Of a stretch of DNA of 27,655 nucleotides, positions 5,236 to 23,853 are shown one piece after another. Below the pieces are notes generated by a model. The model had not been told where the DNA came from and ran no database searches. It saw nothing but the letters and a program-made list of their open reading frames with translations. This DNA is from a virus: positions 1-27,655 of the IMG/VR virus record IMGVR_UViG_3300042402_003870; one strand, given 5' to 3'. The position numbers and the translations under genes are program-made. The stretch's first letter is position 1, and each line of letters starts with the position of its first letter.

Positions 5236-5444
5236 TGAAAGAACAAATTGATTCTATCATCAAAAAGCATTGTTTAAAAATGCAAGAAGTAGACAAGACC
5301 AAAAGCATTCCAATGACAGTAAAAGATTTGGATCATATTGTATACGATATGTACCGAGAACTATATGGATTACGAGACATTCGTGCCAGTAACTATCACC
5401 TTAACAATTTTACCGCAGATGATAAGAAAGGTCATTGTTGTTAA
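5235..5444 (+). CDS. Small protein of unknown function
   Basis: A 69-residue ORF whose ATG shares its A with the preceding TGA (TGATG). The TTG three bases earlier is in frame but less likely as a start. It is largely helical and charged (KEQIDSIIKKHCLKMQEVDK, then DLDHIVYDMYRELYGLRD) and ends in KKGHCC. No membrane segment and no known domain are present. Confidence 0.55.
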   Translation: MKEQIDSIIKKHCLKMQEVDKTKSIPMTVKDLDHIVYDMYRELYGLRDIRASNYHLNNFTADDKKGHCC

Positions 5445-5446
5445 TT

Positions 5447-5728
5447 ATGAAAAAGAAACCAACTCCAGTGTGTCAGAAGGTTGAACTAGACAATTGTTTT
5501 AGTTGCAAAGTTGTTGCTGGTAAAATACACAAGAAAAAGTGTGATATTGAAAGATGTAGTGTGTGTGGTGGTCAAAAATTAAGCTGTGAATGTGAAGGAC
5601 ATGATAAGCAATTTGCCTCCTGGAAAGGATTTTGGCCGGGAGAACTTGAATGTAAAGCGTTGAATATGGATTTGAATACCTTTTATATGACAGGTATGCA
5701 CAAGATATTCTTTGTTAAACCTTCCTAA
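5447..5728 (+). CDS. Small cysteine-rich, probable zinc-binding protein
   Basis: A 93-residue protein from the ATG at 5447; the upstream in-frame TTG at 5435 would overlap the previous gene. Cysteines at 17, 20, 32, 37, 40, 47 and 49 (CFSC; CDIERCSVCGG; CEC) suggest one or two zinc ribbons or knuckles. The C-terminal part contains WKGFWPGELECKAL followed by NTFYMTG, a pattern I associate with small uncharacterised phage proteins. The 3' end overlaps the convergent acetyltransferase gene by 14 bases, and no clear terminator separates them. Molecular function unknown. Confidence 0.6.
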   Translation: MKKKPTPVCQKVELDNCFSCKVVAGKIHKKKCDIERCSVCGGQKLSCECEGHDKQFASWKGFWPGELECKALNMDLNTFYMTGMHKIFFVKPS

Positions 5729-6101
5729 CTTTTTCAAAAAATATAGAATTATAATTGGTAGTAATATACACTTTTATATCTTTATCATTTAAATCAAAAA
5801 ACCCCTTAGCTTTTTTATAGAGTTTAGTACCGATGCCTTGTCTTCGGTACTTTTTTCTTATATAAACCATAAATTCAAACTTAAATTTTGGCGATCTGGT
5901 TAATTTACGTTCTTTAATTATTGCCCATCCGACACATTTGCCACTATCTTTAACGATAAACACTCTATTTTTTATATTGTGTCGAATGTCACAACACTCG
6001 ACATACAATGTGTAGATTGAACCACTTGTAACAAGTTTGCTACAAGCCTTTTCCTCCTCTAAATTGACTTTTAAAGCATCTTTAGAATAGATTCTGATCA
6101 T
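5715..6101 (-). CDS. GNAT-family N-acetyltransferase
   Basis: A 128-residue leftward gene. The acetyl-CoA pyrophosphate-binding loop is clear: YRRQGIGTKLYKKA at about 90-103 (R/Q-x-x-G-x-G/A of motif A), preceded by a strand ending FMVYIRK and followed by YITTNYNSIFFEKV, the typical C-terminal strand/helix where GNAT proteins close the site. Length is slightly short for the family. The substrate (protein, small molecule or modified base) is not predictable. It is the only leftward gene among the first 12 kb and shares a 90-base divergent intergenic region with the helicase gene. It may be a moron-like insertion, given its isolated orientation. Confidence 0.72.
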   Translation of the reverse strand: MIRIYSKDALKVNLEEEKACSKLVTSGSIYTLYVECCDIRHNIKNRVFIVKDSGKCVGWAIIKERKLTRSPKFKFEFMVYIRKKYRRQGIGTKLYKKAKGFFDLNDKDIKVYITTNYNSIFFEKVRKV

Positions 6102-6191: not shown

Positions 6192-8402
6192 ATGACCAAC
6201 AAACATCAAATTTGGGATTATACTCAAGGTAAGCCGACTGTTTTCAAGCACTACGTTTACACATTCACCGAGTTGTTCGGCGAATTCAATGAGTGTAATA
6301 CATGGAAGATTGGCGATACTGTTTCAACCGTTGAGAAGCGTATCGGAAATCAAAAAGCTGCCATGCCTTACAAGGCTAAGATTGCCGCTGAAATTCTATT
6401 GCCTGAGAAGTTTTCGGACAATCAGATTCATCGTGTACTAAACGAAAAGTTTGGGGCTACCTATCGTAAGAAAAAGGAAGCTTCTGGCGACGATTGGATG
6501 GACAATTGTTCGTTGGAAAACATCCGTAAGGCTTACAATTACAAGATTCACGGAAAGGTTTTTAGCTATAATCACACTCTTCGTGATGAACAAATTAACG
6601 CAGCTAACAACATTACGTCATATCTTTCCAAGTCAACCAACGAAGTCTCTCGATTTTTGTTGGCAGCTAAGATGCGTTTTGGCAAAGTTCAAACTACCTA
6701 TCAGTCTATCAAGAATTTGAATTCCAAGCTTAATTTGGTACTTTCTTACAGGGTAGAGGTAAAGAACTCTTGGAAGGATGATGCTGATGACCAAAAGTTT
6801 GGTTATGTCTACATTGATGCTTTGAACATCAAGGATGAAATCAAGTTCGATGAAAACAAGACGTATATCATCTTTGCTTCGATGCAGGACATTTTGGGTA
6901 CAAATCTGGATGGTACTGTAAAGAAGAAGTGGAAGTATCTGTTGTCATTGAATTATGACATGGTTGTACTGGATGAAGTACATTATGGAATCAACAAGCC
7001 TCTTGCACGTGAGATTGTATCTAACATTAATCATACTAAGGAACTTTGGATTAGTGGTACTCCCATTGAAATTCTGATGTCTGGTATGTTTAGTGATGAA
7101 AACATGTATGTTTGGTCTTACTTCAATGAACAAGTAGAACGTAACAAGGAAAAGAGTACCAATTGGGCTACTGAAAATTATCGTTGGTTGGCTCCTCTCA
7201 CGTTCATGCGTCTTGAACCTACTCAAGAAGTAATGGATTATTATTTCAAGAATTATTCCAAAGAAGAAGGTTTCTCTTTTACTAAGTTTTTTACCGTTGA
7301 TGAAACCACTGGAGATTTTGTACATAAGTCTTCAGTTGTTCGATGGTTGGACAATCTAGCTTCTGAAGATGCTCGAGTTTGTCAATCTCCGTTTAACCAC
7401 AATTATTGGTGCAACAAGTTGAATCATACTTTTTGGTATATGCCTCGTTCTGTGGCTATTTGTAAGGCAATGAAGGTTGTTTTGGAATCACATTGGTATT
7501 TCAAGAACTTTAAAATTGTACCAGCATATGCTAACAACGAGGGTGAGGGTACAAATACCCTACAAAACGTAATTGATGCTTGTAAGACATATAATCGCAC
7601 GATTACGCTTAGTTGTGGCAAGTGTAATACAGGCGTAACAGTAAAGCCTTGGACTAGTGTGTTTATGTTGAGTGACACTCAAGAAATTGAAACATATCTT
7701 CAAGTTATTTTCCGCCCACAATCTCCTCATCCAGATGGTAAAAAGGAAGATGTATTGGTTGTAGAGTTTTCTCCCAATCGTGAAATTCGTTGTATGGTAG
7801 AATATGCTAAACTATGTTCTCCAGGCGTAAATGACACTACGGCTGTTAAGCAGGTGTTTGATACCTGTAAGTTTTTGTCCATGAGTCAGAACTCATTGAA
7901 GGAATTGTCGCATGATGAATTTGTACAGTTATATCGTAAGTCGTTTGATCCGGCGATTGTAACAGGCAAGTTCAATTCTGATTTTATTGTGGGAAATGAC
8001 ATTTACGGCAATGAAGACTACATTGTAGATTTGTTGTCTGATTTCAGCGGAACGTTTACAACTGGATTTAGTACTGGAATTAATGTTACCAATATTAAAA
8101 AGGGTAAAACTTTTATTCTTGGTCCCAAGGGAACTAAAACGTCAAGCAAAAAGATTGAGAAGATTATTAGCGAAAAGATCCGAGCGATTACATCACGTAT
8201 TCCTAACTTTTTGTATGCTAGTGATGTTGATTATGGATGCGTTCGTGATCTGGAAACAACCAAGGAAAAGAACTTGTTTGAAACCCAAGTTGGAGTTGAC
8301 TTTAATATTTTTAAAGATCTGCTTGACAAAAAGTTCATTTGTGATAAAGTCTTAGACAACGCAATTCGTGGTTTTATTTTCTACAAGAAGGAAGCTGAAT
8401 AA
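6192..8402 (+). CDS. SF2 helicase with N-terminal T5orf172/GIY-YIG-like domain
   Basis: This 736-residue protein has two parts. Residues about 20-115 resemble the T5orf172/GIY-YIG-like nuclease domain (YVYTFTEL, then WKIGDT and VEKRIGN, with a later IHRVLNEKF). From about 125 there is a superfamily 2 helicase of the kind found in restriction systems: Q-like region TLRDEQINAA (129-138), Walker A AKMRFGKV (159-166), Walker B/DEVH (261-264), SGTP motif III (288-291), motif V LSCGKCNTGVTV (473-484) and motif VI around R508 (ETYLQVIFRPQSP). The Thr/Ser that normally follows the Walker A lysine is Val166, although T168/T169 are near. The gene opens a rightward operon with a methyltransferase relative (1-base gap) and a Mom-like gene. 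DNA translocation linked to modification or cleavage is the likely role. Confidence 0.82.
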   Translation: MTNKHQIWDYTQGKPTVFKHYVYTFTELFGEFNECNTWKIGDTVSTVEKRIGNQKAAMPYKAKIAAEILLPEKFSDNQIHRVLNEKFGATYRKKKEASGDDWMDNCSLENIRKAYNYKIHGKVFSYNHTLRDEQINAANNITSYLSKSTNEVSRFLLAAKMRFGKVQTTYQSIKNLNSKLNLVLSYRVEVKNSWKDDADDQKFGYVYIDALNIKDEIKFDENKTYIIFASMQDILGTNLDGTVKKKWKYLLSLNYDMVVLDEVHYGINKPLAREIVSNINHTKELWISGTPIEILMSGMFSDENMYVWSYFNEQVERNKEKSTNWATENYRWLAPLTFMRLEPTQEVMDYYFKNYSKEEGFSFTKFFTVDETTGDFVHKSSVVRWLDNLASEDARVCQSPFNHNYWCNKLNHTFWYMPRSVAICKAMKVVLESHWYFKNFKIVPAYANNEGEGTNTLQNVIDACKTYNRTITLSCGKCNTGVTVKPWTSVFMLSDTQEIETYLQVIFRPQSPHPDGKKEDVLVVEFSPNREIRCMVEYAKLCSPGVNDTTAVKQVFDTCKFLSMSQNSLKELSHDEFVQLYRKSFDPAIVTGKFNSDFIVGNDIYGNEDYIVDLLSDFSGTFTTGFSTGINVTNIKKGKTFILGPKGTKTSSKKIEKIISEKIRAITSRIPNFLYASDVDYGCVRDLETTKEKNLFETQVGVDFNIFKDLLDKKFICDKVLDNAIRGFIFYKKEAE

Positions 8403-8403
8403 T

Positions 8404-9624
8404 ATGAATGTAGTTAGTTATCTTGAAAAGAATGTGAAGTTGATTCCGCATTTGAACTCTCCCAGCAAAAGTGAGTTGTTCATTTCGATGGAATTATCTA
8501 ACAAAATTCTAAATTGTTTTCCAGAACAAGATTGGTCTAATCCCGATCTAAAGTTTTTGGAGATTGCTAGCAATAATGGAATTGTATCCATGATGATTGC
8601 ACTTCGTCTTTTTAATAACGAAAAGATGAAGTTATGGCAACCAAATGACGAACTTCGATTGAATCATATTTTGAAAAATCAGGTATATGCGTTTACATAT
8701 ACTTCATCTGGGGCTAATATTACAAAGAAGGGATTGTACAATACCACAAATATTGATCTTAATGTAAAAGAAGTTGATTTGGATAAAATCAATTCAGCCA
8801 AGTCATCAATTAAATATGATCGTATTGTATGTGTACCCCCTAGAGGTACACGTAAGCGGTTTTGGCCTGTTTATGTAGAGTATGCAATGAATCTTTGCGT
8901 TAATGATGGTCATACGATTCATCTTATCAATCCTAACTGGCGTTTGAAGCCTGATGTTAAGATGAAGATCAAACGTACTGGTAATAATATGTTTACTTAT
9001 CTACGCAACTATAATATTAGTAGCATTGAAATGGATGGATGGGTAGATTTTGGTTTGCGTCATGATATTGTACATGTTATTAAAAATAAGCCTACCAATC
9101 GTACTTTTGTTAAAAACTGTAAGTTGGTCGAGGGTTCTTATAACTTGAAGAATATGTTTATTCTACCAAACTTTGATATTGACAAGATCAATAGTTTGTT
9201 TACTCATGATACTAATAGTAGGATTACACTTTATGCAAGTGATGATTGTGATCCTCGTAGAAATTATATGAGTATGAATAAGACTAAAACGCATGTATAT
9301 CCATGCATCAATTCTATTTCTAAGAATGATGTGGGATATTGTTATTCATCTGATCCAGATAAGGGTCATCGTTATAATAAAAAGGTAATCATCTCAAATG
9401 GTCAAAAAGTTTGGGATGCTATCAATGATATTAAAGGCGAATATGCTATTACAAATCATGCTTATGGTATTGGTATTGATGACGATACTGATATTAGTCT
9501 ATTGACATCCACACTAAATAGTGATAAATTTAATGAATTCTTGACTGCTATTAAGTGGGAACCCCGTGAAATTGAAGACTATACTCTTAAATTGTTAAAT
9601 AAGAATTTTTATAAAATGCTATGA
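8404..9624 (+). CDS. Eco57I/TaqI-like adenine methyltransferase relative with altered motif IV
   Basis: From the ATG at 8404 the protein has 406 residues. The layout follows type I/IIG N6-adenine methyltransferases: a motif I-like strand and turn at 50-60 (LKFLEIASNNGI), a motif IV position at 140-147 where the usual NPPY reads CVPPR, then the helix/strand WPVYVEYAMNLC...HTIHLINPNWR. A C-terminal TRD-like region contains KKVIISNGQKVW and EYAITNHAYGIG. Loss of the catalytic Asn/Asp and aromatic residue argues against ordinary adenine methylation; it may be a specificity or SAM-sensing subunit, or an enzyme with altered chemistry. It follows the helicase by one base and overlaps the Mom-like gene by ATGA, so all three are one operon. 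Confidence 0.68.
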   Translation: MNVVSYLEKNVKLIPHLNSPSKSELFISMELSNKILNCFPEQDWSNPDLKFLEIASNNGIVSMMIALRLFNNEKMKLWQPNDELRLNHILKNQVYAFTYTSSGANITKKGLYNTTNIDLNVKEVDLDKINSAKSSIKYDRIVCVPPRGTRKRFWPVYVEYAMNLCVNDGHTIHLINPNWRLKPDVKMKIKRTGNNMFTYLRNYNISSIEMDGWVDFGLRHDIVHVIKNKPTNRTFVKNCKLVEGSYNLKNMFILPNFDIDKINSLFTHDTNSRITLYASDDCDPRRNYMSMNKTKTHVYPCINSISKNDVGYCYSSDPDKGHRYNKKVIISNGQKVWDAINDIKGEYAITNHAYGIGIDDDTDISLLTSTLNSDKFNEFLTAIKWEPREIEDYTLKLLNKNFYKML

Positions 9625-10373
9625 CATCTGAATATGTAGATACAACACAGTACTTTATCCAACCTATTGATAAAGATGTAGCGAAGAAATTGATTGTAAC
9701 CAATCATTATACTCATCGGTGGACGATGTGTTACATTGCATTAGGTATTTTCAAAAAAGGCCCTGAATCTGCTTTTATGACTACCAACCAAGATGAATTG
9801 ATAGGCACATTGGTTTATGGTCATCCCACTGGAATGAATGTGGTTAAAAGTATTTCAGATGAATTGGAAACCAATAATGTGTTGGAACTAACTCGTTTGT
9901 GGATTGAAGATAACCACGGCAAAAATATTGAAAGTTGGGCTATTGCTCAAAGCTTTGATTGGTTCAAAAAGAATGAACCCGATTTAAAAGTATTGATCAG
10001 TTATGCGGATCCTGGCGCAGGACACACTGGTAGGATCTATCAAGCAACCAATTGGAAGTATCAGTTTATTAAATCCACAGGAGATGGTACTGATTACGTG
10101 TATGCTTTTGAAGAACCACCTAATTGTCAATGGAAACATGCTAGGTCAATCGGAGCAATGCTTGGGGGTAGTCGAGATCCAAAATATGTTGAGGAAACAT
10201 TAAAAAGACCGTTTTGGCGAAAAGAAATAAATCGACGTAAGTTTCGTTATATATATTTTCTGTGTGATAAACGTGAGAAAAAGCGTTTGATAAAAACATT
10301 GAAACATCCATTATCAGATAGTTATCCTAAAGATCTGGGAGAAGTTTCAGATACTATTGAAAAATTTTTATAA
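9621..10373 (+). CDS. Mom-like DNA adenine hypermodification protein
   Basis: A 250-residue protein resembling the phage Mu Mom family, a GNAT-like fold that converts adenine in phage DNA to a methylcarbamoyl derivative and so blocks restriction. Matching features are the N-terminal TNHYTHRW (27-34), ELTRLWIEDN (89-98), ESWAIAQSFDWF (104-115) and the core ISYADPGAGHTGRIYQATNWKY (from residue 126). Length is close to Mu Mom (about 230-240) plus a basic C-terminus. The ATG overlaps the methyltransferase-like stop by four bases, indicating co-translation and a shared role in DNA modification. No Com-like translational activator is visible nearby. I call the family from memory of its motifs; the exact modification is unknown. 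Confidence 0.75.
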   Translation: MTSEYVDTTQYFIQPIDKDVAKKLIVTNHYTHRWTMCYIALGIFKKGPESAFMTTNQDELIGTLVYGHPTGMNVVKSISDELETNNVLELTRLWIEDNHGKNIESWAIAQSFDWFKKNEPDLKVLISYADPGAGHTGRIYQATNWKYQFIKSTGDGTDYVYAFEEPPNCQWKHARSIGAMLGGSRDPKYVEETLKRPFWRKEINRRKFRYIYFLCDKREKKRLIKTLKHPLSDSYPKDLGEVSDTIEKFL

Positions 10374-10375
10374 TT

Positions 10376-10639
10376 ATGCCTACAAAAATTACAGAACAAA
10401 ATGAATTAATCGCTACAAGAATACCACCTGGTGACAGATGGAAACTTGTGAATGATAGTCGTAAAATTATACATAATAGTTTAACTGAAACGTTAGAGGC
10501 CTATTTCATGGAAACCAAACAAAAGTGTGAATATAGATTGGCTCCTATGGATAGTAAACTATATGTTATCAAAACAGTAGAAGAGGAAATTATTCCAGAA
10601 CCGATTCGTGAATATAACATATACGGCGAACCTTCTTAA
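10376..10639 (+). CDS. Small protein of unknown function
   Basis: An 87-residue ORF starts 2 bases after the Mom-like stop and is probably the last gene of that operon. It begins TKITEQNELIATRIPPGDRWKLV, has a helical middle (SLTETLEAYFMETKQ) and an acidic tail (VEEEIIPEPIREY). Only one cysteine is present, so it is not a Com-like zinc protein. The family is not recognised. The 54-base A/T-rich gap after it contains no clear terminator. Confidence 0.6.
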   Translation: MPTKITEQNELIATRIPPGDRWKLVNDSRKIIHNSLTETLEAYFMETKQKCEYRLAPMDSKLYVIKTVEEEIIPEPIREYNIYGEPS

Positions 10640-10693: not shown

Positions 10694-11539
10694 ATGAATA
10701 ATAATATTATATGGGAAGAAAACAAAAATACATCACAGACGCAGATAAGTTGCAAGCCAGAAAAGATAGACAAATGCGATACTACAACCGAAATAAAAAA
10801 CGTTGTAGAAAAAAATCGCTTGAAAGATACTATAAAAATCGGCGGAATATATAAAATAATACATAAAGATACAGGTAAATATTATGTAGGAAGTACAGTT
10901 TCATTTAGAAAAAGGTGGATCACACATCGTTATAAGTTAAATAATAATTTCCATGAAAATGAACACCTACAAAATGCGTGGAATATATATGGAAAATCCG
11001 CATTTGAATTTATTGTAGTGGAATACATAAATGATAAAGATGAATTACTAATAGTAGAACAGACTTACTTAAATAAAATTAAATATGATTTTGAAAATAA
11101 AATAGATAGTCATTATAATCAAAGATATGATGTTTTTAAGGTGGAGATGACAGATGAAATTAAAGAAAAAATAAGTATAGCCAATAGAGGACGAAAACAT
11201 ACTGATGTAGCTAAATCAAAAATGAGTTTTTCACGTAAAGGTGAAAAACATTGGGGATATGGTAAACCAAGAAGTAAAGAAACTAAGAAATTATTATCTA
11301 ATAAATTAAAGGGAAGAAAATTAAATGCTGAAACGGTGCAAAAAATGTCTTTAAGATTAAAAGGTAGTAATAATCCAGCATATGACTCAAATATTTATCA
11401 TTTTTACAACAAATCTTTGAATTTACATAAAAATTGCACAAAGTATGAGTTAAAAACTGAGTTTAATATAAAAAGTAACCTTTCCGCTTTATTCTCAGGA
11501 AGAAGGAATATAGTCAAAGGTTGGATTTTAATAAAATAA
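10694..11539 (+). CDS. GIY-YIG homing endonuclease with NUMOD3 repeats
   Basis: A free-standing SegA/F-type homing endonuclease of 281 residues from the ATG at 10694. The catalytic domain starts at about residue 50: GGIYKIIHKDTGKYYVGST supplies the GIY...YVG pair, R68/R69 region follows (FRKRW), and the Glu is in the VEQTYL helix. Residues about 165-230 contain two or three NUMOD3-type DNA-binding units (GRKHTDVAKSKMS, GKPRSKETKKLLS, GRKLNAETVQKMS). The C-terminal 50 residues resemble a NUMOD1-like helix-turn-helix ending GWIL. Residues 1-49 look unlike protein and overlap a basic ORF in another frame, so the true start may be TTG 10820 or a frameshift. It acts by cutting an uninvaded allele to spread itself. 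Confidence 0.85.
   Translation: MNNNIIWEENKNTSQTQISCKPEKIDKCDTTTEIKNVVEKNRLKDTIKIGGIYKIIHKDTGKYYVGSTVSFRKRWITHRYKLNNNFHENEHLQNAWNIYGKSAFEFIVVEYINDKDELLIVEQTYLNKIKYDFENKIDSHYNQRYDVFKVEMTDEIKEKISIANRGRKHTDVAKSKMSFSRKGEKHWGYGKPRSKETKKLLSNKLKGRKLNAETVQKMSLRLKGSNNPAYDSNIYHFYNKSLNLHKNCTKYELKTEFNIKSNLSALFSGRRNIVKGWILIK
10711..10854 (+). CDS. Small basic ORF overlapping the homing endonuclease 5' end
   Basis: In the frame one base ahead of the endonuclease, an ATG at 10711 opens 47 codons: GRKQKYITDADKLQARK, then RYYNRNKK and KKSLERYYKNRRN. The composition (K/R plus Tyr and Asn) is like N-terminal DNA-binding extensions I associate with phage and giant-virus homing endonucleases, and reads as more protein-like than residues 1-49 of the endonuclease ORF. 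It stops (TAA, 10852-10854) just where the GIY-YIG domain starts. An A7 run at 10809-10815 could allow a +1 or -2 shift that joins the two. It may be a separate peptide, a fusion by frameshift, or a decayed remnant. Confidence 0.45.
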   Translation: MGRKQKYITDADKLQARKDRQMRYYNRNKKRCRKKSLERYYKNRRNI

Positions 11540-16350: not shown

Positions 16351-19300
16351 TTATTTGGATTCTAAAATTTGAACTTTGGCTTCAAGTGTTTTGACTTTGG
16401 TACTTAATTCTTGTACTGCTTTGATAAGTGGTATCATTAAATTGCCTGGGGTAGCTTCTAACTTATCTGGGTTATCCTCATATACTAATTTTAGAAATTC
16501 TACACCTTCTTCTTCTTGAAGTGCTTTTAATTCTTGTGCAATAAATCCAGCTTGTATGACACTATCTTTTTTGCTACCATCTCTATTACCGTCAGTATAC
16601 CATTCTCTACGATCCCATTTGAAGGTTACAGGTCTTAATTTCTCTACAAAACTTAGACCAAGTTGAATGTCAGTAATATCGGTTTTATCTCTAAAATCTG
16701 ATAAAGCAGTAATAGTAGTAACTTGACAACGTAATGAAGTTACACTTGAATTACCCAATGTTATTTGATTGGTAGCTGTAGCTGATGAAGGTTCGGCTGA
16801 AGCGCCGATTATAGTTAGATTTATACCACCTGTTACTGTGGTACCAGCATTAGCACCAAATGCACTATTGGTATAACCTGAAATATTATTTATTAATGCT
16901 TTATAACCAAATGCACTATTACTATTTGCAGTTCCGGTCGTCCGTTGATTTCTTAAAGTGTAAGCTCCAAATGCACTATTAGCATTGAAACCACTATATC
17001 TTAATGCTTCAAATCCAAAGGCACTATTACTTACACCGCCACCAGCCTCAGACGCCCTAGATCCCATTGCAGTATTTCTTTGGCTAAACTGACCATTTGA
17101 ACCACTTAGTAATGTTTTATAACCAAAAGCTGTATTATCACTAGCAGTAGTTAAATTTCTCAACGCCATATGACCAAATGCACTATTTCTCGAACCTGTA
17201 GTGCTAGTATATAATGCTTGGTAACCAAACGCGTTGTTATTGCTTGTAGTATTAGCAAATAAAGCTTTGTAACCGAAAGAATTATTGTTTGAACCAGTTG
17301 TATTAGAATATAAAGATCTATATCCAAATGCACTATTATTATTACCAATAGTATTTAATGTCAATGCTAAATAACCAAAAGCATTATTATGATAACCAAA
17401 TGTATTTGATTCTAACGCCCAATTACCAAATGCATTATTTTTAATACCAGTTGTGTTTTTTCTTAAAGCATAAGCGCCAAACGCAGAATTGTTTTCTCCA
17501 GTCGTGTTATATCTCATTGATTCATAACCGAAGGAATTATTATAATTACCAAGTGTATTATTTCGCAATACTTGAGCACCAAAAGCACAATTCAGATTGC
17601 CTTCTATATTTTCATACAAAGTACCATATCCAAATGCACTATTATTATTACCAATAGTATTACTATACATTGAATACATACCAAATGCACTGTTACTATA
17701 ACCAAATGTGTTACTATACAATGATTGAGCACCAAATGCATCGTTATTAATACCCTCTGTATTACTAAATAACGCTTGATAACCTACTGCTGTATTATAT
17801 TCCCCAAATGTGTTACTATACAATGCTTTATAACCAATAGCACTATTATAAAAACCTGTAGTATTAGATGATAAAGCGCCGTTACCTATAACAGTATTAG
17901 TAACAACATTGCCTGATCCTCTACCTATACTTAATCCATCTATGATACTTGTAGCGTTACTACCGCTTACATGTAATTTGCCTGATGGATTGTTTGTGCC
18001 TATGCCTACTTTATTATTTATAACAACAAAGTCATTAACACCATATTGACCGCCTACAATTCTATCGTTAGCGAATACTTCGAATACTGGTAAACCGGCA
18101 CTGTTATTTACACTCATCAAGCTATCACTTAGATCATCTACAACACTAAACAATGTACCACTTGTACCATCTGCTCTGATTACGGTTGAACCAGCAGTTG
18201 TTGTAACTGTATGTAATTTAGCAACAGGAGCAGTTGTTCCAATGCCTACATTGGTACCATAACCAACAGACATAATTACATCAGGAGTAACACCAGCAGA
18301 TCTGTTTATAGCAAAATCAATTCTTGTATCTGTATTACTATTCCAATATGGTCGTATCCAAGCATTATAATTTGTACTGGTATCAAACCTCATCACAATA
18401 CCATTTGCTTGTGTACTAGCTATGTCTAATTTAGCGCCTGGACTATCTAATCCTATACCTATATTTCCGCCAGCTCCAATAAATAATGGTACTGTACCAG
18501 CAGTAGTATTATTAAAACTAAAACCATATTGGTTTGATGGAAAATTGTTTCTTAACTGCCATGTAGGTACACCCGTTCTGGTTATAGTAATATAAGGAGC
18601 AGTTGCATCATCTAAGTGTAATTTACCGCTTGGACTTGTTGTACCTATACCTACGTTACCAACATCAGTAATTGTCATTTTTACTGTTGGATCTGTAAGA
18701 ACGCCTCTAGTGTATATATCTAAAATTCCCCCAGCACTTCCAGCACTAACCGGCCTATTTCTAAACACAACATGACTATATAGTCCTAATGCGAGAGATG
18801 TTGGGTTAGCATCAGCAGAACCATCTATCAAATTTAATGTATGAGTATAAACACTAGAATTTGTAGTAATATCAGCGTTTATAAACATTGCTCTGGTATT
18901 AACAGCGAGTGTTCCTGCGGAAACATATAATTTAGCAGTAGGACTAGTTGTACCTATACCTACACTACCTCCTGCTGGATTTAAAGCTAATGGATATTGT
19001 CCAGTGCCGTATAGTTGTGATTGAATTACACCAATATTGTTCGTGGTATCAATACCTAGCGCTAGACGTTTAGCTGTATTGGTTGCTCCACGAATAACAA
19101 GTTGTCCGATACCATTATCTGCAAATGATACACCTGTTGCATCTGCTTCTATTGTTGTTTTATTGGAAGGATTACTTGTACCAATACCTACTCTACTACC
19201 ACTGATAACAAAGTCATTGGCATTGTATTTACCCATCACAACTCTATTATTGCTAAATGCTTCCATGACGGGTAGACCAGCAATTGTATTTACACTAAAT

Positions 19301-22300
19301 AAACTACCACTCAATTGATCTGTTACTTCAAATAGAGTACCATTACCACCGTCAATCTTCAATACACTCAAATTACTACCACTAGCATAAGCATTTAGTT
19401 TGCTAATAGGACTTGATGTGCCTATACCAATATTGCCGGTACCAGTGACACGCATTCTTTCTGTGCCTGTGCCAATTGCACCTGTGCCTGTATAAAAACG
19501 AATTGCATTTTGAGCTCCACCTGAAGAATCAAAATCTATATAATAATTTGTGGTTCTTATTCCCGTCGAATAAGTTGGGTTGGTATTATCAATAAAGAAA
19601 TATGAACGAGTTGTACCACCACTATCTTGTAACGATATACCTCCTGTAGTTCCAGGATAAATTGATAGTTTTTGATTTTGAACAGTTGTGCCTATACCTA
19701 CATTACCATTTGTATCTATACGTAGTCTTTCAGTACCGCCTGTTTTGAATGTTAGTGTATCAGCGGCTGCCCAATCCATACCTGTATTGGTATCTTGATT
19801 GAAAGTATAATATGGATCGTGATTACCATAAATAACTGCGCCTGTAGTATCTCCAGCATACACAGTTCCAGAACTATTTATGGTAAATATTGCATTGGTT
19901 GAACCTCCTCTAATTCTAAACGGAGTATAATTGTTACCTACTGCAGCTGCGTATTGATAACCAACGCCAATTGCACCACCACCAAAACTTGCGTTGGTAG
20001 ATCTTACAAACAAGAATGAACCTGAAGCAGTATTTGTACCTTCAGTTTGTATTTGTAATCCAGATGTTGTAGTTGATGTGCCTATGCCTACATAACCACC
20101 ATTTGTAATTCTTACTCTTTCAGCATTATCCAAATCAAATCCACTTGTATGTAATGCCATTCCAACTGTTCTATTATAACCCGCTCCATCTTCACTTACA
20201 GCGTATATACAAGCAGCTTTACCTTTGGTATTTATGCCATCGATGGAACCATTCATCTTGATGCCCCACTTAGCACCAGCATTAGATACAGATGCTGGAT
20301 TATTACCAAACGGAGCGGTTAATACCATAAAGTCATTAACTTTATTAGCATCCATAAATGTACTAGTAGAAGCAGTACCAAGTTGAATTCTTGAACCAGT
20401 ATTGTTTGTTGCAATAACTGTTAATGTAGCACTTGGACTTGATGTACCTATACCAACATTACCACCTTGTTCATTTAACCAACTATTTTTTCCTGCTACA
20501 CCAAAACTATGATTTCTTGTCCATGTAGATCCATCTGATGTAGAGATTCCACCCATGTCTATAGCTTGACTAGAGAGGTTGGGGCAGAAAATTCTCATTC
20601 CTGCGGTTGATGAATCTAATCCAAATCCAGTTCTTACATTCGTTGAAGTTTCTCCGATCAATAAAACTTGACCAACGTTATTAGCTTTAGCCAAATCTAA
20701 CAATACTCTTGGACTGCTCGTACCTATACCCACATTACCATTTGTGTCTATACGTATTCTTTCGGATGTACCACCTAAAGTAAGAATATTACTGGAACTA
20801 CGAACATCTGATGCACCAATTGTAACGCCGTTAGCAGTAAGATTACTTGAAAAAAATCCAGTTCCAGTAACTTCTAACTTATATCCAGGACTTGTTGTAC
20901 CTATACCAACATTACCATCTGATAGAATACGCATTCTTTCAGTATTAGTTGTACTAAATACTATTGGTATATTACTTACATTACCAATTACTAAAGAAGT
21001 TGGATGTGGTGAACCAAGAGTACTTGTTCCAAAATATGCTTGACCAGCAGCAGTAACTCCAAAGTTTGTACTAGCAGCAGATCCGCCTAACATACCCATT
21101 ATTAACACCGCATCTGATGCAGCTTTTATCTGAAATTGAGATACACTGGTAGTAGTATCTGAATCAAGACGCATTATTGTTTGTCCAGATCCACTTATAT
21201 GTAACTTACTAGCAGGACTTGTTGTACCTATACCTACGTTACCGCCAAGAGGATTTAAAACTATTGGATATGTTAAACCGCCACCAACCGTAGCATGTTT
21301 TCCTTGAAACCAAACGCTAAACGGAGTAGTAACCATTCTGCCCACCGCCAATTGAACACCCAAACTATTAACTGAAAAAATTGATGGATCACCCGGAGTT
21401 AACGTTGGGTCCATTGATCCGCCATAAGCTTCTAGTTTTGCTATTGGACTGGTTGTGCCTATACCAACGTTACCATTATATTGAAGAATCATTCTTGGCG
21501 TATTACCTGTACCAGTACCATAATGATGTGTCCAAAATCTAACATTTTGACTATAATTACCACCATTTGGAGCAGGAGCGTTTACGCTCTGTATATCCAT
21601 ACCACTAAAACCATCGGTATTAACTGCTCCACTGTTACTACCATAACCAATTGCTCTAGTAGAGCCTTGTTCATACCCATTCTGTAAACCATCTAATAAA
21701 ATACTTCCATTTATGTGAAGTATTTGTCTAGGAGTACTAGTACCTATACCAACATTGCCAGATTTATTTATGACCATGTTCAAGTCCCAACCAGAACCAT
21801 TATAATCATAAAAAGCTATTCTACCAGCGTCAGCAGAAACATTGTCGGATCTACCAATTATATGAACTTGACCTGGGTATGTAGCATGATCCTTACCCCA
21901 CAGATACATACTTGGTTGTGTACTATCAGTAGTGTGAGTTATTGCTGTAACACCTGTGGTAGAAGCTTCACCAAATACACTATTTAATTTAACATTACCA
22001 GCAACATGTAGTAGTTGTGATGGAGTTGTTGTGCCTATGCCAATATTACCGCTGCTATCTACACGCATTCTTTCTGTTGACGTTGTTGAGATTGTAACAG
22101 AACCGGCTTCTGTTGAAAATAATTGTAGTTGACCAGTTCCTTTGTGTTCTAGTCTACTATTAGCATTTGCACCGGTATCATAACGAATTAATCTTAAACC
22201 AAAATCCGGATAAGTCGCGTCTCCAATTAAATCTACATAAGAATTACCATTACCACTTCTACCACTTCCAATTTCCAATCTCGCATCTGAAGTAGTGGCG

Positions 22301-23853
22301 GTTGTTATTAAAAATACATCACCAACTCTACCAGTACCACTTACATCCAATTTATAAGCAGGACTTGTAGTACCTATGCCAACATTACCATCAGCAGCAA
22401 TACGCATTCTTTCACCACAAGTTCCACCTGTTGTGGTAAAAAATTTCATATGACTTGGTGCGCCACTCGCAGTAGATGAACTTACAACTAAGAAAGCACT
22501 TCCTGTCAAATTATTTGGAGCTCCATTCAATGGCCCCAATGTACCAATATTACCAAATGCTATAGTATTGTTACCATTAGCAGCATTAGCAACGAATAAA
22601 TTACCCTTTAAATCTAATTTTGTAGCAGGACTTGTAGATCCTATACCAACATTACCACCGTTCGTTATATAAAATCTTGAAGTTCCACTCTTTTTAATGT
22701 TTACCAGATCAGCTGCACCAGTATTATCAAGATCCAACATGAAAGTACCACCATGATCTCCCACTGCTTGAAAAGAACCATTTGTTATCAATCCATAATT
22801 ACCAGCAGATGAAAAAGAACGCACACCACCAATTACATCCAATTTAACACCAGGACTACTTGTACCAATACCTAAGTTACCATTGGTATCAATACGCATT
22901 CTTTCACTACCATTGTTGTAAATAGAAATGAATCCTGAGTTAGTATTAACAATATAACAATCAACGCCTGGTTTATGTATATAAAAATTTGTACCTGCAC
23001 TTCTTAAAGCAAGCAAAGCATCAGTATTTCCATATAATTCTAAAAGACCTCTATTTGACGTTGGATATGAAAATGTTGATGTGCCTATACCCACGTTGCC
23101 GTAGAAAACAGCTGCCGGTACACTTGCTGAACCTGTAACATGTAATTTACCTACAGGATTGTTTGTACCAATACCCACTTTGTTATTAATTACTACAAAA
23201 TCATTCGTACCATATTGACCGCCTACAATTCTGTCATCAGCAAATACTTCCAATACAGGCAAACCAGCACTATTATTGACTGACATCAAACTATCACTTA
23301 AATCGTCAATTACACTAAATAATGTACCATTTGTACCATCAGCTCTTAATAATGTTGCACCAGATGTAGCAGAGGTAACATGTAATTTAGCAAGAGGATT
23401 GGTAAATCCACTACCAATACCTAAATTACCATTGCCTGTTAATATCATTTGCAATGTACTATTAGGTCTAAAGAACATGTCATAGTTACCTAATGTTTGA
23501 ATAAATGCTTGACCACTCCAATTTAATATATCACCCCCATTTATTCTTACATTACCAATTACATGAAACTTATCAGCAGGACTTGTTGTACCTACACCTA
23601 CATTTGTACCATTATCGTATATTAAGCTGTTTGCTATGGTACTATTTCCAGTAAATTTGCTTAAAAAATTGGAGGTTGGTTGTGCCGATGTTACAAATGC
23701 TCCACCGCCTCCGGTTGATATGGAACTTGCTGATAGTGGACCCGTGACAAGCAAGGTATTGCCTGTTAACTTTAAAGTATTAGTTACGTTATCACCTTTG
23801 ACTGAGAAAAAGTCTATTTTACCAATAGCTGGATTTATTACGATATCTGCCAT
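16351..23853 (-). CDS. Giant tail fibre with beta repeats and C-terminal S74 chaperone
   Basis: A 2500-residue fibre or adhesin. Residues about 1-80 form a short N-terminal attachment region. Residues 85-1965 carry some 23 repeats of the VGIGTTSP-x3-KL-x-V-x-G type separated by variable beta-rich segments. About 1985-2335 is an array of 17-residue NSAFGYxALxxNTTGxN units, like the YadA-type left-handed beta roll. The last 116 residues form a peptidase S74 intramolecular chaperone: S2385 and K2390 in LSDFRDKTDI are the self-cleavage dyad, followed by VEKLRPVTFKW, GFIAQEL and a final coiled coil. S74 domains trimerise the fibre and then cut themselves off. It probably forms a long homotrimeric receptor-binding fibre. 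It is co-oriented with the LamG genes upstream. Confidence 0.9.
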   Translation of the reverse strand: MADIVINPAIGKIDFFSVKGDNVTNTLKLTGNTLLVTGPLSASSISTGGGGAFVTSAQPTSNFLSKFTGNSTIANSLIYDNGTNVGVGTTSPADKFHVIGNVRINGGDILNWSGQAFIQTLGNYDMFFRPNSTLQMILTGNGNLGIGSGFTNPLAKLHVTSATSGATLLRADGTNGTLFSVIDDLSDSLMSVNNSAGLPVLEVFADDRIVGGQYGTNDFVVINNKVGIGTNNPVGKLHVTGSASVPAAVFYGNVGIGTSTFSYPTSNRGLLELYGNTDALLALRSAGTNFYIHKPGVDCYIVNTNSGFISIYNNGSERMRIDTNGNLGIGTSSPGVKLDVIGGVRSFSSAGNYGLITNGSFQAVGDHGGTFMLDLDNTGAADLVNIKKSGTSRFYITNGGNVGIGSTSPATKLDLKGNLFVANAANGNNTIAFGNIGTLGPLNGAPNNLTGSAFLVVSSSTASGAPSHMKFFTTTGGTCGERMRIAADGNVGIGTTSPAYKLDVSGTGRVGDVFLITTATTSDARLEIGSGRSGNGNSYVDLIGDATYPDFGLRLIRYDTGANANSRLEHKGTGQLQLFSTEAGSVTISTTSTERMRVDSSGNIGIGTTTPSQLLHVAGNVKLNSVFGEASTTGVTAITHTTDSTQPSMYLWGKDHATYPGQVHIIGRSDNVSADAGRIAFYDYNGSGWDLNMVINKSGNVGIGTSTPRQILHINGSILLDGLQNGYEQGSTRAIGYGSNSGAVNTDGFSGMDIQSVNAPAPNGGNYSQNVRFWTHHYGTGTGNTPRMILQYNGNVGIGTTSPIAKLEAYGGSMDPTLTPGDPSIFSVNSLGVQLAVGRMVTTPFSVWFQGKHATVGGGLTYPIVLNPLGGNVGIGTTSPASKLHISGSGQTIMRLDSDTTTSVSQFQIKAASDAVLIMGMLGGSAASTNFGVTAAGQAYFGTSTLGSPHPTSLVIGNVSNIPIVFSTTNTERMRILSDGNVGIGTTSPGYKLEVTGTGFFSSNLTANGVTIGASDVRSSSNILTLGGTSERIRIDTNGNVGIGTSSPRVLLDLAKANNVGQVLLIGETSTNVRTGFGLDSSTAGMRIFCPNLSSQAIDMGGISTSDGSTWTRNHSFGVAGKNSWLNEQGGNVGIGTSSPSATLTVIATNNTGSRIQLGTASTSTFMDANKVNDFMVLTAPFGNNPASVSNAGAKWGIKMNGSIDGINTKGKAACIYAVSEDGAGYNRTVGMALHTSGFDLDNAERVRITNGGYVGIGTSTTTSGLQIQTEGTNTASGSFLFVRSTNASFGGGAIGVGYQYAAAVGNNYTPFRIRGGSTNAIFTINSSGTVYAGDTTGAVIYGNHDPYYTFNQDTNTGMDWAAADTLTFKTGGTERLRIDTNGNVGIGTTVQNQKLSIYPGTTGGISLQDSGGTTRSYFFIDNTNPTYSTGIRTTNYYIDFDSSGGAQNAIRFYTGTGAIGTGTERMRVTGTGNIGIGTSSPISKLNAYASGSNLSVLKIDGGNGTLFEVTDQLSGSLFSVNTIAGLPVMEAFSNNRVVMGKYNANDFVISGSRVGIGTSNPSNKTTIEADATGVSFADNGIGQLVIRGATNTAKRLALGIDTTNNIGVIQSQLYGTGQYPLALNPAGGSVGIGTTSPTAKLYVSAGTLAVNTRAMFINADITTNSSVYTHTLNLIDGSADANPTSLALGLYSHVVFRNRPVSAGSAGGILDIYTRGVLTDPTVKMTITDVGNVGIGTTSPSGKLHLDDATAPYITITRTGVPTWQLRNNFPSNQYGFSFNNTTAGTVPLFIGAGGNIGIGLDSPGAKLDIASTQANGIVMRFDTSTNYNAWIRPYWNSNTDTRIDFAINRSAGVTPDVIMSVGYGTNVGIGTTAPVAKLHTVTTTAGSTVIRADGTSGTLFSVVDDLSDSLMSVNNSAGLPVFEVFANDRIVGGQYGVNDFVVINNKVGIGTNNPSGKLHVSGSNATSIIDGLSIGRGSGNVVTNTVIGNGALSSNTTGFYNSAIGYKALYSNTFGEYNTAVGYQALFSNTEGINNDAFGAQSLYSNTFGYSNSAFGMYSMYSNTIGNNNSAFGYGTLYENIEGNLNCAFGAQVLRNNTLGNYNNSFGYESMRYNTTGENNSAFGAYALRKNTTGIKNNAFGNWALESNTFGYHNNAFGYLALTLNTIGNNNSAFGYRSLYSNTTGSNNNSFGYKALFANTTSNNNAFGYQALYTSTTGSRNSAFGHMALRNLTTASDNTAFGYKTLLSGSNGQFSQRNTAMGSRASEAGGGVSNSAFGFEALRYSGFNANSAFGAYTLRNQRTTGTANSNSAFGYKALINNISGYTNSAFGANAGTTVTGGINLTIIGASAEPSSATATNQITLGNSSVTSLRCQVTTITALSDFRDKTDITDIQLGLSFVEKLRPVTFKWDRREWYTDGNRDGSKKDSVIQAGFIAQELKALQEEEGVEFLKLVYEDNPDKLEATPGNLMIPLIKAVQELSTKVKTLEAKVQILESK
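16354..16701 (-). other. Peptidase S74 autoproteolytic chaperone domain
   Basis: Codons 2385-2500 of the giant fibre. Cleavage before S2385 would release a peptide of 116 residues. The end (LIKAVQELSTKVKTLEAKV) is a trimeric coiled-coil candidate. Confidence 0.85.
16845..17905 (-). repeat. 51-bp tandem array encoding NSAFG (YadA-like) units
   Basis: About 20 units are present. The first 13 or so keep a period of 17 codons almost without change (e.g. NSAFGYRSLYSNTTGSN, NNAFGYQALYTSTTGSR). Units nearer the S74 domain vary between 16 and 20 residues. The DNA copies are diverged rather than identical, so the array is old and under protein-level selection. Confidence 0.85.
17983..18225 (-). repeat. 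Long internal duplication of the fibre, copy C-terminal
   Basis: Encodes RADGTSGTLFSVVDDLSDSL, an AGLPVFEVFANDRIVGGQYG stretch and FVVINNKVGIGTNNPSG. It is nearly identical in protein to the copy at 23159-23400; the DNA differs at many third positions. Confidence 0.85.
19171..19400 (-). repeat. Long internal duplication of the fibre, diverged middle copy
   Basis: Encodes GNGTLFEVTDQLSGSLFSV, AGLPVMEAFSNNRVVMGKYN and FVISGSRVGIGTSNPS. It is clearly related to, but more diverged than, the copies at 17983-18225 and 23159-23400. Confidence 0.75.
23159..23400 (-). repeat. Long internal duplication of the fibre, copy N-terminal
   Basis: Encodes RADGTNGTLFSVIDDLSDSL, AGLPVLEVFADDRIVGGQYG and FVVINNKVGIGTNNPVG. 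Two copies near opposite ends of a 2500-residue fibre being this similar suggests recent copying or strong structural constraint. Confidence 0.85.

Follow-up and report, generated by a model that had tools for sequence, protein, structure and literature searches.

The window analysed here is the whole 27,655-base virus record IMGVR_UViG_3300042402_003870, which is probably a fragment of a virus genome. Three genes follow one another on its plus strand, in the arrangement described by the initial annotation: gene 1 (6192..8402, 736 aa) encodes a restriction-type SF2 ATPase whose N-terminal domain is T5orf172/GIY-YIG-like, gene 2 (8404..9624, 406 aa) a relative of gamma-class adenine methyltransferases (MTases) that is predicted to be catalytically dead, and gene 3 (9621..10373, 250 aa) a DNA-modifying GNAT protein of the Mom family. 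The ORF calls confirm the single base between genes 1 and 2 and the four-base ATGA overlap (9621..9624, plus strand) at which, as the sequence suggests, translation of genes 2 and 3 is coupled. We took the ATG at 8404 as the start of gene 2, as in all family alignments, while the mechanical ORF list has an upstream GTG at 8368. The families that had been named for the three proteins were also correct, on the evidence of PF25680, PHROG and the structure 8bv8 for Mom, of ResIII and its relatives for gene 1, and of relatives, profile and fold for gene 2. The reading frames of genes 1 and 2 are unbroken over 736 and 406 codons, respectively, and no close relative of the whole trio was found in the phage record collection.

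Upstream of the trio lies a divergent GNAT-type gene (5715-6101), separated from gene 1 by 90 bases. A single promoter for the trio would fit this gap and is plausible; the earlier assertion that the genes lie behind one promoter gained nothing from a promoter scan, which returned 27 sites versus 24.9 +/- 5.2 in shuffled sequence, that is, no excess. Two bases 3' of mom, a small plus-strand ORF of unknown function (10376..10639, 87 aa), which had no match in the Pfam, PHROG or PADLOC family searches, is perhaps on the same transcript. Several other genes of the window can be given provisional labels. A 97-aa cysteine-rich ORF (5435-5728), zinc-ribbon-like by eye, is separated from the trio by the divergent GNAT gene, and further upstream (516-2809) are nucleotidyltransferase-like, dCMP-deaminase-like and ATP-dependent DNA ligase genes. 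Shortly 3' of the trio there is a gene resembling GIY-YIG homing endonucleases, with NUMOD3 repeats (10694-11539), and the minus strand carries a gene for a 2500-aa protein that resembles tail-fibre or other virion structural proteins (16351-23853), with more structural-like genes behind it.

Gene 3 is, by its sequence, a true member of the Mom family. It matches Pfam Mom PF25680 with an E-value of 6.4e-47 and 160 bits (cut-off 27) over profile positions 2-194 of 202, a match that had been named beforehand as a test of the 250-residue protein; it also matches PHROG 1384, 'Mom-like' (6e-48), and the solved structure of Mu Mom, 8bv8 (E 5.4e-14). The chemistry that we propose for gene 3 on this basis is that of Mom, an acyl-type mark on adenine. 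In phage Mu, mom is preceded by com, the gene of a small zinc-finger translation activator, and is subject to control by the host Dam. Gene 3 and Mu Mom belong to the same protein family, but the window gene lies behind an SF2 ATPase and a dead MTase. Directly 5' of mom in the window is the gene for the 406-aa MTase relative, and no Com-like ORF was recognised there.

The assignment of gene 1 draws on Pfam, PADLOC, its relatives and an AlphaFold model. The protein matches Pfam ResIII (E 7.6e-10) and PADLOC REase_MTase_IIG (E 6.6e-16), and the model (mean pLDDT 77) matches ATPases of the SNF2 type as well as SauUSI, a restriction ATPase. The N-terminus itself matches the T5orf172 clan marginally (MUG113, E 0.022), and in close relatives of gene 1 the T5orf172 domain is detected with E-values of 2e-8 to 4e-10; the front of gene 1 is probably a T5orf172 (GIY-YIG-like) nuclease domain. 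This domain, placed by its conserved positions and the MUG113 match at residues about 19-110 (6246..6521), keeps 11 of the 14 positions with a family-wide conservation of at least 85%, including Y21, Y23, K39, G41, T43, R50, D76 and W102, and has Asp at residue 101, where a Glu is near-invariant in the family. The family alignment places the Walker A region at 6666..6689 (AKMRFGKV), where the usual Thr is replaced by Val, turning GKT into GKV (94% of the family have Thr at position 166), and the DExH box, DEVH, at 6972..6983; the latter is intact and is among the 94 of 133 highly conserved positions that gene 1 retains. Given the GKV sequence and the E101 to D change, gene 1 may hydrolyse ATP and cut DNA only weakly or not at all, and the helicase translocation that the initial annotation invoked becomes doubtful with the loss of the Walker A Thr. 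Gene 1 probably represents a restriction arm.

Gene 2 alone had no Pfam match and no convincing family match in the PHROG and PADLOC searches. When it was combined with its relatives into a profile and compared with the PDB, CamA (3e-16), HsdM and BrxX were found, and the structural model of gene 2 (mean pLDDT 62, with the first 180 residues better) matches the same proteins by fold, CamA 7lni with an E-value of 7e-10; rows L009 and L011 were left out of the structure-prediction alignments. Gene 2 aligns with the intact MTases of its family and is homologous to their MTase domain. Both motifs at which we looked are, however, degenerate compared with the family. Motif IV, with the general form (D/N/S)PP(Y/F/W) and the family form NPPY/NPPF, is VPPR in the window (8833..8844), so that neither the Asn nor the aromatic residue is kept; position 144, Val in gene 2, is Asn in 99% of 80 family sequences, a sample from which known dead MTases had been left out. 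The AdoMet-binding motif I, DPACGxG and similar in the family, is EIASNNG (8560..8580). In LlaGI, a type ISP enzyme, the adenine N6 is bound by the catalytic Asn of this motif, and a Tyr located three residues further on stacks on the flipped base (PMC4872093). The MTase active site is lost in gene 2, which is predicted to be catalytically dead. The identification of gene 2 as an MTase relative was right from the start, but the lost catalytic motif, which is the key fact about this gene, had been missed.

Viral scans with the single helicase or MTase-like protein of the window as the query yielded no relatives, and alignments were needed as queries. With alignments, two overlapping sets of viral helicase loci (55 and 80) were recovered, and bacterial and archaeal genomes contributed 49 loci of the helicase family. 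Nearly all of these loci combine the helicase with an intact MTase (NPPY/NPPF), as separate genes or as a fusion, and PADLOC labels proteins of this kind as type IIG or type II restriction-modification. The helicase-MTase family of phages and bacteria is restriction-modification-like, and the window falls within it, with a homologous SF2 ATPase adjoining a homologous MTase-like gene. None of the 49 bacterial and archaeal genome loci has Mom beside the helicase-MTase system.

The location of motif I and motif IV on different chains is frequent in this family. At many loci with an intact MTase, the main MTase is adjoined by a second, small MTase-like ORF that contains motif I (e.g. DPACGDG) and no motif IV; examples are L058:9097-9543, L059:9190-9723, L009:5598-6380 and L011:5769-6473. 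No small motif-I partner of this kind was found in the window, where the MTase model matches gene 2 only. In a fused helicase-MTase (L066:5923-9985), NPPY is kept, the sequence DLTIEND aligns with motif I, and the ORF that follows has the motif I DIACGIG; the two proteins are possibly, to judge from these motifs, complementary parts of a single enzyme. The family is present in scattered form in a 484-kb phage (LR756508; L012:7150-14182), with a separate NPPY half and motif-I half, a 1255-aa helicase that has an NPPY region of its own, and, in between, a 256-aa ORF without an assigned family.

Among the fetched Mom loci, a helicase and an MTase-like region beside Mom were found, besides the window, only in the virus record IMGVR_UViG_3300032224_001922 (L070). 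The search for the same gene trio in other phages, which had been suggested as a check, thus produced a second trio, but all other fetched Mom loci are without one nearby, and the helicase is absent from 25 of the 26 Mom-bearing records searched. In L070, the helicase and the MTase are fused into a 1241-aa protein that overlaps Mom, and the MTase region has the degenerate motif IV FPPI along with the motif I DTSSGSG. At the N-terminus of this protein, no known nuclease was recognised by Pfam, ORF comparison or PDB search; a pattern resembling PD-(D/E)xK is visible by eye, and we make no claim on it. Another locus, L142, was considered as a third trio and rejected, its ORF overlapping the Mom start not looking like an MTase.

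A further set of 12 distinct phage loci (L153, L180, L181, L199, L203, L204, L207, L208, L218, L221, L222 and L227) contains a helicase with the Walker A sequence GKC, a dead MTase and then an SSPPY-type DNA MTase. The dead MTases of this clade have lost motif IV (SIDF, NLDY, AIDF, GVQF and others), often with S/N and F/Y remaining at its ends, as in SIDF and NLDY, and motif I is kept in most of them. The modifier, which is about 383-394 aa long and contains the motif SSPPYFNLE(T/I)Y (phrog_12517), is encoded directly 3' of the dead MTase in all 12 loci, and in most of them the two genes overlap by about 20-30 bases. Relatives of the SSPPY-type protein occur in Bacteroides phages, among them DAC16, and in Vibrio phages, without an adjoining helicase-MTase system, those of Vibrio phages being annotated as N4-cytosine methylases. 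The place of this clade in the helicase-MTase family was found in the present analysis, and we know of no published description of L153-type loci.

In a tree of the helicase core (50 rows, no MTase columns), the MTase active site is lost on three branches, namely the window, virus L070 and the 12-member clade. A separate base modifier is encoded directly downstream in 14 of the 14 rows with a dead MTase versus 0 of the 36 rows with an active one; this modifier is Mom in the window and L070 and the SSPPY-type DNA MTase in the 12-member clade. L070 is the sister of the active L149 (support 100/100) and the SSPPY clade is the sister of the active L163/L168 (99/96), whereas the window is placed, weakly supported, close to the active L014 clade. 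Three changes are required for the dead state and three for the separate modifier, and these coincide in all three independent pairs, with p 0.25, three pairs alone being too few to reach significance. The helicase tree rejects a clade of the window and L070 (AU p 0.0005). When an MTase tree was built with the motif columns removed, the window grouped with the active L149/L150 (95/93), and the window-L070 clade was not rejected (p 0.10). Because the window and L070 form long branches, the safe statement is that the combination of a dead MTase with a separate modifier arose two or three times.

The dead MTases of the SSPPY clade are under purifying selection, with dN/dS values of 0.08-0.21 where measurable, next to about 0.05-0.13 for the helicase and the modifier. 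In deeper pairs, they vary more than their neighbours, as a specificity subunit might; because this variation is spread along the protein, the hint is only suggestive. For the same reason, we rejected the possibility that the extra variability is confined to a distinct recognition region.

Several known systems resemble parts of the locus. The idea that Mom serves as a self-mark has a precedent: a survey of jumbo phages predicted Mom-nuclease fusions to be restriction-modification units (PMC7824862). The likeness consists in a Mom self-mark joined to a nuclease arm (PMC7824862), but the nuclease of the jumbo phages is a fused domain of the REase fold, whereas the window has a separate T5orf172-like/SF2 protein and a dead gamma-class MTase. 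Systems that combine a T5orf172/SF2 helicase with an Eco57I-like MTase (PADLOC PDLC03626-like; for example NatCom_35866, L014, L059 and L149) have homologous helicase and MTase-like genes, adjacent or fused, but these retain an intact NPPY/NPPF motif and have no separate modifier, unlike the window, where the MTase motifs are lost. The L153-type loci share with the window a dead gamma-class MTase followed by an overlapping gene for a separate base modifier, but this modifier is DNA-methylase-like rather than Mom, and motif I of the dead MTase is mostly kept. Finally, the type ISP enzymes LlaGI and LlaBIII present the same order of nuclease, SF2 ATPase and gamma-class N6-adenine MTase (PMC4872093); however, they are single chains with an Mrr-family nuclease and a working MTase, whereas the window has separate chains, another type of nuclease and a dead MTase. 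Set against the type ISP chain (Mrr nuclease, SF2 ATPase, coupler, MTase and TRD), the window has separate genes and a T5orf172-like front. Because gene 2 departs from both MTase motifs and the locus does not encode a single chain, we file it neither as an active gamma-class MTase nor as type ISP. In the open-licence papers searched, we found no report that links Mom with both an SF2 ATPase and a dead MTase, or that describes modifier exchange within the family. What is new here is the loss of the MTase active site on three branches with a separate modifier directly downstream of every dead MTase.

The explanation that we favour, and to which we give an even chance, is that the trio forms a restriction-modification-like system, carried by a phage, whose modification step has passed to Mom. 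Under this explanation, gene 2 would descend from the gamma-class adenine MTase of a helicase-MTase system and, having lost methyl transfer, would be kept as a subunit for DNA recognition and possibly for base presentation. Mom, coupled in translation through the ATGA overlap, would place an acyl-type mark on adenine, at the sites recognised by gene 2 or close to them. Gene 1, with its nuclease-like front and SF2 ATPase, would attack or probe DNA that lacks the mark, for example the host chromosome or a second phage in the cell, whereas the DNA of the phage itself would be protected. We infer complex formation, site-directed action of Mom and restriction by the trio from the identity of gene 3 as Mom, the restriction-modification-like family with its intact MTases, the motif loss in the window and the 11 of 14 nuclease positions kept, together with the L070 trio, the pattern of 14/14 versus 0/36, the purifying selection in the SSPPY clade and the prediction of restriction-modification units for the Mom-nuclease fusions of jumbo phages. 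The points against it are the GKV and E101 to D changes, the L070 front without a nuclease match, the partnerless Mom of nearly all other phages, the status of the window as a single sequence without a close relative, and the p values of 0.25 for the pairs and 0.10 for the MTase tree. The suggestion of the initial annotation that the MTase relative is a recognition partner for Mom is plausible in the light of the contrast between dead and active loci and the trio in L070. Its reading of the trio as a hypermodification or anti-restriction system has to be set beside a restriction arm, which had been overlooked and is at least as likely as hypermodification alone, given the restriction-modification-like family and the retention of most nuclease positions.

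The trio could also, as the initial annotation proposed, serve modification only, with gene 2 recognising DNA and gene 1 remodelling it or moving along it, so that Mom is guided to adenines and the virion DNA resists host nucleases in the absence of any restriction. The same gene association, seen in L070, in the SSPPY loci and in the contrast of 14/14 versus 0/36, fits this reading, and the changes of the Walker A Thr and the nuclease Glu, as well as the L070 front, would fit a loss of cutting. Nevertheless, we regard it as unlikely, if worth serious attention, in view of the restriction-modification-like family and the conserved nuclease-domain positions that remain in the window; the GKV change, moreover, weakens most the very part that relies on guiding by translocation. 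Another view, which we hold to be quite unlikely, takes the genes as neighbours without a joint function, with Mom by itself giving broad protection against restriction and with genes 1 and 2 as a remnant of restriction-modification that is decaying or separately used. That Mom stands alone in nearly all phages carrying mom, 25 of the 26 searched records being without the helicase, and that key residues are changed in both gene 1 and gene 2 would agree with such a remnant. However, the frames of these two genes are intact, the 1-base gap and the overlap couple the genes, L070 has the same order with a dead MTase of its own, and in the SSPPY clade the dead MTase is under purifying selection with the modifier always behind it. 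It is improbable, finally, that gene 2 is still an MTase, either with an unusual motif or completed by another chain of the host or the phage, and that Mom adds a second, unrelated mark. Split motifs are frequent in the family and the ends of motif IV often persist in the SSPPY clade, but in the window motif IV has neither its Asn nor its aromatic residue, motif I is broken as well, and the small motif-I partner ORF was not found.

Extended from the trio to the family, the reading in which modification is handed over would make the marking chemistry a plug-in: the dead MTase would persist as a recognition platform while a stand-alone modifier, Mom or the SSPPY-type DNA MTase, takes over, the self-mark of the window being an acylated adenine placed by Mom. 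We advance this view tentatively, at somewhat less than an even chance.

The usual classification of restriction-modification systems relies on a methylating subunit in which DNA recognition and marking are combined. Should a dead MTase serve purely as a recognition platform for an unrelated modifier, the recognition of sites and the chemistry of the mark would be modules that can be separated, and annotation pipelines that call such genes methyltransferases would predict the wrong mark. It would also show how Mom, mainly seen as a broad phage shield, could turn into a site-directed self-mark. The window, L070 and the 12 SSPPY loci make up a concrete set on which the idea of phage-encoded systems that may keep out rival phages is testable. 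The presence of a dead MTase together with a separate modifier in three viral lineages suggests that the DNA-marking chemistry of such systems is exchangeable.
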